Source: Spirochaetales bacterium (lineage in GTDB: Bacteria > Spirochaetota > Leptospiria > Leptospirales > Leptonemataceae). Taken from it: 64,000 bases of DNA. The translations under genes and the position numbers were made by a program. Each line of letters starts with the position of its first letter. Positions within the stretch are counted from its first letter, which is position 1. Positions 28,893 to 45,270 of this stretch are shown here, piece by piece. The notes under the pieces were generated by a model, which saw only the letters and a list, made by a program, of their open reading frames with translations, did no database searches and was not told where the DNA came from. The stretch covers positions 1,240,001 through 1,304,000 of the forward strand of contig JABTUL010000001.1 of assembly GCA_015075425.1 (NCBI GenBank). Reading direction: 5' to 3'.

Positions 28893-29741
28893 TTATCGGA
28901 GCAGCTGAAGAACAGTCTGCGACTTCATATTTGCCTGGGCAACCATCGCCGTTGCTGCTTGCAGCAGGATCTGGTAGCGAGTGAAGCTGGTCATCTGCTC
29001 TGCCATATCTGTATCGCGGATACGAGATTCAGCAGCCTGAATGTTTTCATAGGCATTCATCAGTCCCTTGGCAGCATGTTCCAGACGATTCTGGTAAGCA
29101 CCAAGGTCGGCTCTTTGCTTGGAGACGCGACGCAATGCTTCATCTGCCAGTCCAATCACACTGTTGGCTTTATCCGGAGTGCTGATGGATATAAAAGTCA
29201 ACACTGTCGGATTGCGTAATCCCAGCGCAGAAGTTGTCATGGTGTTGATGAAAACCCGCTCACGCTGGTGCATGTTGGGACCAATATGGAACCACATCGA
29301 GGCAGAAGGGTTGAGTCGGGCAAAAGCACCGGTCAGCATCTTCATTTTGTTGAATTCGGCCTGCGATGCAATCCGGTCAATCTCGTCAATAAGCTGAGAG
29401 ACTTCTACCTGGATTTGCTGGCGGTCCTCATCGGTATAGATACCGTTGGCAGCCTGCACGCCCAGAACACGAATTCTCTGCAGTATATCCTGTGTTTCCT
29501 GCAGGTAGCCTTCCGTGGTCTGGATGAAAGAAATTCCATCCTCCGCGTTACGCGTGGCCTGCCGCAAACCCTTTACCTGAGTCCGCATTTTCTCGGAAAC
29601 GGCCAGTCCGGCTGCATCGTCACCAGCGCGGTTGATCCGCATTCCCGAGGACAGCTTCTCAATGTCTTTCGACATATCAACTTCGTTGAACTTTAAAGCT
29701 CTATGCGCGTTGATAGCGCTGATGTTGTGGTTGATAATCAT
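28893..29741 (-). CDS. flaB: Flagellin core protein FlaB
   Basis: 282 residues. The N-terminal D0/D1 segment ([42 protein letters not shown]) and the C-terminal one ([32 protein letters not shown]) are typical flagellin, and the short middle with [13 protein letters not shown] is specific for spirochaetal FlaB. It forms the core of the periplasmic flagellar filament and has no signal peptide because it is exported by the flagellar secretion apparatus. A strong GGGAGGA lies six bases before ATG 29741. The leader has two hairpins with GGA loops. A terminator lies downstream. Confidence 0.95.
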
Positions 29742-29743
29742 CT

Positions 29744-29796
29744 AGGGTCCTCCCTGAACCTGTTCTATCGTCTTGCGACCTGGACAATCCTTGTCC
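29744..29796 (-). promoter_or_regulatory. flaB leader with two GGA-loop hairpins, candidate CsrA sites
   Basis: In the flaB mRNA, GGACAA-GGA-UUGUCC (29796-29782) forms a perfect 6-bp stem with the loop GGA, and the sequence ACAAGGAUUGU is close to the CsrA consensus ACARGGAUGU. A second hairpin AGGG-AGGA-CCCU (29755-29744) has GGA in the loop and covers the Shine-Dalgarno. Two such sites, one over the ribosome-binding site, are how CsrA represses flagellin translation in Bacillus hag and Borrelia flaB. No csrA gene is in this window. Confidence 0.6.
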
Positions 29797-29851
29797 CGGT
29801 AACAGGATCGGGAGAGTGGGAAAATTTCCCTTTACATTTTTTCTCGAGCAT

Positions 29852-30082
29852 TCAAGGTTTTTTTTCATCCAGCCAGTGGATGCATTCGCCGGGGCAATCT
29901 TTGATTTCCCGGTTGATGCGCGTCTCGTCCTCTATTTCTACAGGAGCTTCATTGATATACTGCCCGCCACGATGGGTTTCCGCAACATCGCTTTCATCCA
30001 TCTGGAAGTAATCCGGTGATCGGTCGCTGCATTGATTGCAGGAAGTGCAGTCCTCCTTGTTTACTGTAACCCTTCGCAACAT
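29852..30082 (-). CDS. Small ferredoxin, single cluster
   Basis: 76 residues with the cluster motif CTSCNQC (C-x2-C-x2-C) near the N-terminus and a distal Cys in DCPGECI, the pattern of single-cluster [4Fe-4S]/[3Fe-4S] ferredoxins. It is an acidic, soluble electron carrier. The start is ATG 30082; a TTG directly upstream is possible, and no strong Shine-Dalgarno is seen. It lies upstream of flaB on the same strand and diverges from the DNA methyltransferase gene. Partner enzyme unknown. Confidence 0.82.
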   Translation of the reverse strand: MLRRVTVNKEDCTSCNQCSDRSPDYFQMDESDVAETHRGGQYINEAPVEIEDETRINREIKDCPGECIHWLDEKKP

Positions 30083-30183
30083 CAAGTCTTAGAAAGAAAA
30101 TTGGACGGGCAGGGCAAGCAAAAGACCGATACCGATGTCTATAAAGAGAGAACAATGCCTGCCACTGAATGTCCTGACAGAGA

Positions 30184-43467: not shown

Positions 43468-45270
43468 TTGGACTCATCCGAGATTAGAGATGAGATCGTT
43501 CGTGCTGTCCCTGTTGAATCCTACATTGGTAAATACGTAAAACTTAAGAAAACCGGCAAATCCTACAGCGGTCTGTGTCCCTTTCATCAGGAGAAGTCGC
43601 CGTCTTTTACTGTCACTCCAGAGAAGGGTCTGTACCATTGCTTTGGCTGCGGCAAGGGCGGAGATCTGTTTCGATTTGTCATGGACTACGAACACGTATC
43701 CTTTCCCGAGGCCCTGGCCATTCTGGCGGCGTACGCTGGCATTGAACTGAAAAGCCAGGGCAGTGATTCGCATAAAAGACTGTATGATTTAAACGGCCGC
43801 GTTGCCCTGTATTACGCTTCCCTTCTGCAGGGGAAGCCGCGCGACTATCTCAAAGGTAGGGGCCTCACGGAAGAGGCCATTGAGCATTTTCAAATCGGTT
43901 ACAGCAGTCCGGAAAAGAACGCCTTACAAAAGCAGTTTCCCGCAGAGGAAGGGCTCGCGTCTCTGCGGCTTATCAACAACGGCTATGATTTTTTTCGAGG
44001 ACGGATCATGTTTCCCATCCGGACCTATTCGGGCCGGGTAGCTGGCTTTGGCGGCCGCAAAATTGCCGACGAAGACTTTGGCCCCAAATACTTAAACTCG
44101 GCGGAATCGGCGATTTTCCGCAAGAATGACCTCTTCTACGGATTGTCGGACGCATTGCCGGCGATTCGCCGCTCCGGGCGTGTCTACGTTGTGGAAGGTT
44201 ACCTGGATGTAATGGGACTGTGGCAGTCGGCGGCGCAGGGCGCGGTGGCCCCGCTGGGCACGGCCTTCAATGCCCGTCATTTACAAATTCTCAAACGTTA
44301 CGCTCGCGAAATCGTGGCGATCTATGACGGAGACGCAGCCGGCCGCAAAGCAGCCTTAAAATTTGCCCGGCTGGCCGTCGATCATGGAGAGGAGGCCAGT
44401 CTGGTGCTCTTGCCGCGGGGCCTGGATCCTTTTGATCTATGTCAGGCTCTTTCTCCGCCGGAAGTTCACAATCTGCTGGAAAGGACGGTTCCCACGGACT
44501 ATTTTCTAATCATGGAGACTATGTTTCCGGATATCGTTCCTGCAGCATCGGGCGGAATTGAGGAACAGGCCCGGGAGTTGCAGGACTACTACCTGGGTAA
44601 GAATCTGCTGGCTTTACCTGGAGATCTGGGCGGTCGTAAAAAAGCTCGGGATCTTTTCTTTGAACTGTACCGCAACATCCAGCGGCCTTCCAACAAAGAG
44701 CTTTACCTGGAGCACGCAGCCTTGCTTTTACGGATGTCCAGAGGGGCCCTGAAGGAGGAATTGGGCGGGGAAACCCGGAATGCTCCCGTGGCAAAGGCAG
44801 CAGTGCGTAAATCGGCTTTGCCGGCCTCCGGTCCGTTTGCCGCCATTGAACGGCGACTGATGGTCCTCTGCCTTTTGGAGCCGGAGGCATTCCGTGAGGA
44901 ATATGAAACTCTATCTCGCATCGAGTGGCGGGATGATCCGGCTCTGCTACTATTTCAGTTACTTGAATATCGGGCGGGTGGAGGCCGTAGCTGGCTTGCC
45001 CAGGAAATCACTGAGTCAGGTGACCTGCCGCCGGAAATTGCCGCTCTTTTCCGGGGATTCCTCCTGTCCGCCGCCGGCACAGAAGACGGTTCTGTGGAGA
45101 CGGCTGTTGCAGAGGTACGGGAACTCTGTCTCAAGCATGAACTGGCAATACTCAATGAGGAGCTGGGCAGACTGAAAAAGGATGCACTGGAAGAGAGATT
45201 TGATTTAATTAAGAGAGTCAAGGCGCTTGAGGAAGAGCTGCGCCTGCCGGCGTACAAACGGGAGAATTGA
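43468..45270 (+). CDS. dnaG: DNA primase
   Basis: 600 residues from TTG 43468, three bases after yqeY. The zinc-binding domain (CPFHQEKSPSFTVTPEKG then YHCFGCGKGGD, about 37-66) is followed by the RNA polymerase core with TOPRIM motifs VVEGYLDVMGL (about 241-251) and AIYDGDAAGRKAA, and a helicase-binding C-terminal domain. It makes RNA primers for the replication fork. All metal-binding acids of the TOPRIM fold are present. Confidence 0.95.
   Translation: MDSSEIRDEIVRAVPVESYIGKYVKLKKTGKSYSGLCPFHQEKSPSFTVTPEKGLYHCFGCGKGGDLFRFVMDYEHVSFPEALAILAAYAGIELKSQGSDSHKRLYDLNGRVALYYASLLQGKPRDYLKGRGLTEEAIEHFQIGYSSPEKNALQKQFPAEEGLASLRLINNGYDFFRGRIMFPIRTYSGRVAGFGGRKIADEDFGPKYLNSAESAIFRKNDLFYGLSDALPAIRRSGRVYVVEGYLDVMGLWQSAAQGAVAPLGTAFNARHLQILKRYAREIVAIYDGDAAGRKAALKFARLAVDHGEEASLVLLPRGLDPFDLCQALSPPEVHNLLERTVPTDYFLIMETMFPDIVPAASGGIEEQARELQDYYLGKNLLALPGDLGGRKKARDLFFELYRNIQRPSNKELYLEHAALLLRMSRGALKEELGGETRNAPVAKAAVRKSALPASGPFAAIERRLMVLCLLEPEAFREEYETLSRIEWRDDPALLLFQLLEYRAGGGRSWLAQEITESGDLPPEIAALFRGFLLSAAGTEDGSVETAVAEVRELCLKHELAILNEELGRLKKDALEERFDLIKRVKALEEELRLPAYKREN

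Follow-up and report, generated by a model that had tools for sequence, protein, structure and literature searches.

The closest described systems are flagellin mRNAs under CsrA and FliW. In Campylobacter jejuni, flaA has a short leader with two GGA-loop stem-loops, the second over the ribosome-binding site; binding to the ANGGA loops is proven and footprinted, relatives carry compensatory changes, and FliW is the antagonist (PMC4894983, available portion). In Bacillus subtilis, hag carries the CsrA sites BS1 and BS2, one over the Shine-Dalgarno (SD) sequence, with established binding and partner switching among CsrA, FliW and flagellin (PMC8523840, PMC7652899, available portions).

Spirochaete flagellin genes have been brought into the same picture. 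The flaB leader of Borrelia burgdorferi was reportedly the subject of a 2011 study by Sze. CsrA represses translation of this flaB from a site over the SD (as cited in the available portions of PMC8668096 and PMC3757020), and CsrA sites near the SD are described for flaB1 and flaB2 of T. denticola (PMC9481697, available portion). In Leptospira, CsrA shifts L. biflexa flaB3, through the SD-site loop, and L. interrogans flaB4 in gels, and flaB mRNA changes on deletion and overexpression of csrA, the direction in one species being the reverse of that in the other (PMC8668096, available portion).

Here we analyse a flagellin leader within a stretch of 64,000 nucleotides of a Spirochaetales genome, which we call the window. 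That CsrA acts on this leader as a translational switch is, on the sequence evidence, a likely reading, and we are more confident still of CsrA-FliW action on the flagellin mRNAs of this organism. Like C. jejuni flaA, the presumed leader has two GGA stem-loops, the second at the ribosome-binding site; unlike flaA, its sites are predicted, its upstream loop has three or seven nucleotides and its SD loop five or four, and it belongs to one of four flagellin paralogues. With hag, from a different phylum, it shares two sites, here predicted, one of them over the SD, and with Borrelia flaB a predicted CsrA site overlapping the SD. Leptospira has in common with it membership of the Leptospirales, fliW-csrA after flgL, a GGA loop over the SD and four flaB genes; the available portion of PMC8668096 describes the SD site alone, to which the window leader adds an upstream hairpin and an SD hairpin that is not a hexaloop. 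A sequence-only reading of this DNA had proposed the CsrA switch and likened its two-site layout to hag and Borrelia flaB. The likeness to hag stands (PMC8523840, PMC7652899) and extends to Campylobacter flaA (PMC4894983), whereas the cited accounts of Borrelia give, second-hand, the SD site alone.

The flagellin locus

The flagellin frame matches the Pfam families Flagellin_N (E 2.3e-44) and Flagellin_C (E 2.1e-25), and 19 of the 21 other genomes of the family have an orthologue at 74-91% identity. Read on the minus strand, its leader is ACCGGGACAAGGAUUGUCCAGGUCGCAAGACGAUAGAACAGGUUCAGGGAGGACCCUAG-AUG. The locus comprises:

28893-29741, minus strand: flagellin gene of the FlaB type, 282 aa (open reading frame, ATG at 29741)
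29744-29755, minus strand: alternative SD hairpin AGGG-AGGA-CCCU, proposed by the sequence-only reading; excludes the 29746-29760 hairpin
29746-29760, minus strand: SD hairpin GGUUC-AGGGA-GGACC (hairpin 2), common to relatives; probable CsrA site 2
29748-29754, minus strand: SD sequence GGGAGGA
29782-29796, minus strand: upstream hairpin GGACAA-GGA-UUGUCC (hairpin 1), core ACAAGGAUUGU; probable CsrA site 1
29808-29811, minus strand: CCGA of the -10-like element TCCCGATCC, conserved in orthologues
29852-30085, minus strand: small ferredoxin gene directly upstream of the flagellin gene, stop at 29852

Ferredoxin is the upstream neighbour at 12 of the 20 flagellin orthologues of the family and was not found at the more distant spirochaete flagellin loci searched. 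The genome has four flagellin genes, the window gene and three paralogues.

CsrA and FliW in the genome

A search for csrA and fliW had been suggested as a check, and both genes are present, adjoining and in single copy: csrA at 880422-880577 of contig C2 (genome G000; E 4.2e-22) and fliW immediately upstream (E 1.5e-33). Together with a FlgL-like gene they form a cluster at 880.4-882.3 kb, in the order flgL, fliW, csrA; the name FlgL is our reading, by position, of a distant Flagellin_N match. The GTG start of csrA comes directly after a TGA, just past the fliW frame. Across the family, csrA occurs in 19 of 22 genomes and fliW in the same 19, including all 13 of the most complete; the three genomes with neither gene (G009, G020, G021) are 77-81% complete, which fits a missing contig.

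The CsrA protein can be aligned over residues 1-58 with solved CsrAs (1y00), no gaps being needed, and keeps L4, V42 and R44, and its residues 2-71 align with the CsrA of entry 5dmb, which we take to be a FliW-CsrA complex. By alignment it has both the RNA-contacting residues, with roles as given in the available portion of PMC6692469, and the C-terminal extension for FliW described in that of PMC7652899.

The upstream hairpin

The perfect 6-bp stem with a GGA loop that had been claimed upstream of the SD is present on the minus strand at 29782-29796. The sequence around its GGA was said to be near the CsrA consensus, and this holds as well: the hairpin contains the exact core ACAAGGAU, which is also found in the SELEX consensus RUACARGGAUGU (PMC7652899, available portion). 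The pattern ACARGGAUNGU, picked after the site had been seen, has a single occurrence on both strands of the 64 kb, at 29784-29794 (0.18 expected). When the 62-nt leader is dinucleotide-shuffled, 2.5% of the shuffles contain a GGA-loop hairpin of at least 6 bp (P 0.025) and 0.4% contain two GGA hairpins matching the quality of the observed pair (P 0.004). Over both strands of the 64 kb there are 63 GGA hairpins of 6 bp, about 0.03 per 62 nt.

In the canonical register, hairpin 1 reads GGAC-[AAGGAUU]-GUCC, with one extra U and a shift of one nucleotide from the canonical hexaloop. An in-register test did not find the closing geometry C-[ANGGAN]-G at this hairpin.

Two accounts leave CsrA out of hairpin 1. 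An intrinsic terminator of the ferredoxin gene could sit at its position, past the ferredoxin stop (29852) and ahead of the flagellin start; however, the hairpin is followed by AGGUCGCAAG, with no U run, and we give this account next to no credence. Alternatively, the 15-bp palindrome GGACAAnnnTTGTCC would be a DNA operator at the transcription start and not an RNA element, in keeping with its perfect 6-3-6 symmetry and its position a short way downstream of the -10-like box. The palindrome occurs at only one place in the 4.13-Mb genome, it is absent from the orthologue leaders compared, and its loop is exactly GGA, all of which makes an operator very improbable.

The Shine-Dalgarno hairpin

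The second hairpin had been drawn as AGGG-AGGA-CCCU. This structure can form and places the GGA in a loop, but the form seen in relatives is GGUUC-ANGGA-GGACC, shared by 6 of the 20 family orthologues (L088, L089, L090, L091, L094 and L095). In both alternatives the SD GGA is looped out. Their energies are -3.7 kcal/mol for AGGG-AGGA-CCCU and -4.1 kcal/mol for GGUUC-AGGGA-GGACC, with pair probabilities about equal. A 74-nt fold from near the presumed start consists of exactly hairpin 1 and AGGG-AGGA-CCCU; with a longer 3' end GGUUC-AGGGA-GGACC wins, and the ensemble is divided roughly half and half.

Taken alone, the SD hairpin is no stabler than shuffles (30-nt fold, z = -0.05), so its support is comparative. 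The mean SD stem score over the 79 family leaders is 4.60, against 3.26 when flanks are swapped between leaders (sd 0.12, maximum 3.75). An SD hairpin is general among the flagellin leaders, most commonly as GUUUC-AnGGAG-GAAAC with outer pairs A-U or C-G, and a second class has the form GCA-AAGGAG-UGC.

A covarying two-hairpin leader in Spirochaetota

The comparison draws on 22 genomes of the family, which yielded 79 flagellin leaders, and on 80 loci from named records, by most titles Leptospirales and other Spirochaetota and nearly all metagenome assemblies; the sets overlap and give 142 distinct leaders. We dropped L167, in which no in-frame start was found, L168 and L169 as duplicates, and flagellin or FlgL-like matches that were partial. 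The upstream hairpin of relatives follows the pattern C-[A N GGA N]-G. In-register stems of 4 bp or more are present in 72 leaders; 60 of these close with a C-G pair and 71 have an A two positions before the GGA, while the stem pairs run through many types. From shuffles, such a canonical hairpin of at least 4 bp would be expected in 2.0 of the 58 family paralogues, 1.8 of the 64 other loci and 0.47 of the 20 family orthologues of the window gene; the observed counts are 24, 47 and 1.

Alignment A1 holds 43 of 50 non-redundant leaders, the seven longer than 62 nt being omitted. All 10 pairs of its two helices have changed on both sides, and covariation is 0.734 as against 0.224 in shuffled alignments and 0.09-0.18 when slid; RNAalifold recovers both helices unaided. 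The rows of helix 1, though not those of helix 2, were chosen for pairing, so the 98.6% pairing of helix 1 is partly by construction.

At E up to 0.01, the covariance model R1 matches 137 of 198 Spirochaetota genomes, some of which also supplied leaders for the model. Alignment identifies a flagellin start at 29 of its 30 best loci; the remaining locus, truncated where its contig ends, begins with one by our own reading. A further 39 places picked by hand include one repeat, and 37 of the other 38 precede a flagellin, bringing the count to 67 of 68 inspected places. The sole exception, L210 (G059:C182:1850-2180), lies before a frame that starts MSTKEKIREIDTEIARLEDELSNV. In the whole window, Rfam matches at gathering score amount to one tRNA, with none in the flagellin leader, and no title on a phylum-wide flagellin-leader motif was found in the literature on spirochaete CsrA/FliW, the hag leader or Leptonema. 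R1 models a leader that no Rfam family matches in this window.

Post-transcriptional control of flagellin had been claimed for "this lineage too". The pairing of csrA with fliW and the covarying layout support that claim, which was if anything understated: the layout is phylum-wide and CsrA binding in Leptospira was already known (PMC8668096, available portion). CsrA-FliW control of flagellin, so far a matter of a few spirochaetes in culture, is hereby extended with covariation evidence to the majority of genomes sampled in the phylum, and the switch looks old in Spirochaetota.

The window leader departs from the canonical form

R1 does not report the window leader at E up to 10 in a search of the window with filters off. 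A search of the whole genome reports the leaders of two paralogues, C3:298955 (E 0.026) and C1:224378 (E 1.7), leaves out both the window leader and that of the fourth flagellin, C1:223394, and also returns four places not known as flagellin leaders. Three of the four (C2:421069, C2:369974 and C1:2343896), at which no flagellin-like start was seen, are not claimed as CsrA targets. Neither is the best R1 match in the window, at 43858 (E 0.041). It lies inside the frame 43468-45270, primase-like by our own reading of its sequence; the plus-strand segment 43858-43918 can form GGCCUC-ACGGAA-GAGGCC, a CsrA-like geometry that is probably due to chance.

Each of the two window loops deviates by one nucleotide from the canonical hexaloop C-[ANGGAN]-G. 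In a tree of 95 flagellins, the 20 family orthologues form one clade (support 96), whose sister comprises 29 other spirochaete sequences. The canonical upstream hairpin is found in 27 of the 29 sister-clade leaders versus 1 of the 20 orthologues, so the orthologue group has probably lost or remodelled this site. The off-register hairpin of the window gene carries the same CAAGGAU core. With any register allowed, GGA hairpins of at least 5 bp number 4 among the 20 orthologues against 1.1 expected; on these counts the upstream GGA hairpin is not conserved within the group. Within this region, GGA-loop hairpins with stems of 5 bp or more are found in three orthologues with longer leaders: L088 (the window gene), L091 and L096.

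These counts bear on a narrower reading, in which CsrA uses the SD site only, the ancestral upstream site has been lost, and the 6-bp GGA hairpin is a product of chance or a stabiliser of the 5' end. Retention of the canonical site by the sister clade, its chance-level frequency in the orthologues and the 2.5% of leader shuffles that yield a comparable hairpin all favour it; the exact core ACAAGGAU in hairpin 1, within the only ACARGGAUNGU of the 64 kb, and the regional hairpins of L088, L091 and L096 speak against it. We regard use of the SD site alone as unlikely, and prefer the two-site reading: the window gene is most likely a CsrA-FliW switch of a known kind with a slightly remodelled leader, a modest message for the gene itself.

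Promoter, transcript start and read-through

The CCGA at -70 is the only one in the 150 nt before the window flagellin ATG, and all 20 family orthologues have a CCGA between -130 and -20 (7.0 expected). If it is a -10 element, we infer a transcript start at about 29796-29802 (near 29799, or -58), which would keep both hairpins. For hairpin 1 to be transcribed with the gene, RNA synthesis must begin upstream of 29796, and the predicted start would include it by a margin of only about 3 nt, the weakest link in the proposal. In several orthologues the CCGA is merely 27-38 nt from the ATG, too near for an upstream site, so those leaders would hold the SD site only.

Sigma-28 promoters follow a consensus from which we took the spacing [TC]AA[AT]-N14-16-nCCGA. 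This spacing was found in none of the 20 family orthologues as against 15 of 58 family paralogues (1.7 expected), and a sigma-28 promoter for the window gene was dropped on that comparison.

Longer RNAs behave differently. A 131-nt fold pairs the SD (z = -3.27) in a manner that depends on sequence upstream of the presumed start: for a transcript from 29830, P(unpaired) is at most 0.01 for five of the seven SD bases, compared with 0.45-1.0 from 29802, and in short transcripts the SD stays in a loop. In the read-through RNA (29744-29830, minus strand), CUCUCCCGAUCC would be paired to the SD. Against 60 shuffles of its upstream part, the long form hides the SD more than 57 or more of them do in five of 19 orthologues (L096, L101, L102, L103 and L107) and in 0 of 15 paralogues; L097 was excluded from this test, its CCGA being at -123.

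Pairing of CUCUCCCGAUCC with the SD in RNA read through from ferredoxin could be a device independent of CsrA, silencing flagellin on ferredoxin transcripts. The 131-nt fold, the drop in SD accessibility from a 29830 start, the five orthologues beyond shuffles and the 12 of 20 with ferredoxin upstream are on its side. The window leader, however, is not one of the five and is unremarkable in the shuffle test (23 of 60 as low), and the four g12 genomes keep the SD half unchanged but vary in the upstream half, uncompensated beyond CUCCG, a pattern to be expected from a shared promoter box. With such dependence on upstream sequence and weak conservation, SD sequestration was rejected as the main reading, and even as a device of its own we hold it to be quite improbable, retaining it as a lead.

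The proposed switch and the four flagellin leaders

In the CsrA-FliW reading, one CsrA dimer would bridge the GGAs of the two hairpins, so that the SD would be covered and ribosomes kept from entering. FliW, encoded in the flgL-fliW-csrA cluster, would remove CsrA when not itself bound to flagellin; export of flagellin would free FliW, and translation would resume. For this leader the transcript start, CsrA binding, bridging, control by FliW and the direction of repression are inferred steps of the model. Since CsrA overexpression raised flaB mRNA in L. interrogans (PMC8668096, available portion), the direction may vary.

Because both loops are one nucleotide off, the window leader may differ from those of the three paralogues in its affinity for CsrA. 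Of the four leaders, two form a hexaloop in each hairpin, and in one of these two the upstream stem is short; a third combines a 12-bp upstream hairpin with a weak SD hairpin, and in the window leader both loops are shifted and the sigma-28 spacing is absent. In the C3 paralogue the upstream hairpin is short, at 3 bp. That one flagellin orthologue group in one family departs from the canonical leader form opens the question whether filament composition in spirochaetes is set through affinity for CsrA. A fuller scheme can be imagined, in which the four flagellins carry CsrA switches of differing strength, a single CsrA-FliW pool sets the order and ratio of subunits, and the orthologues have been rewired behind ferredoxin, with read-through silenced by SD pairing; as a whole we find it unlikely.

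The fourth flagellin (L164, G000:C1:223355-223644, minus strand) sits on a long branch (0.47) in the flagellin tree, and its 12-bp upstream hairpin reads GGGGAGAAUGCA-AGGA-UGCAUUCUCUCC.
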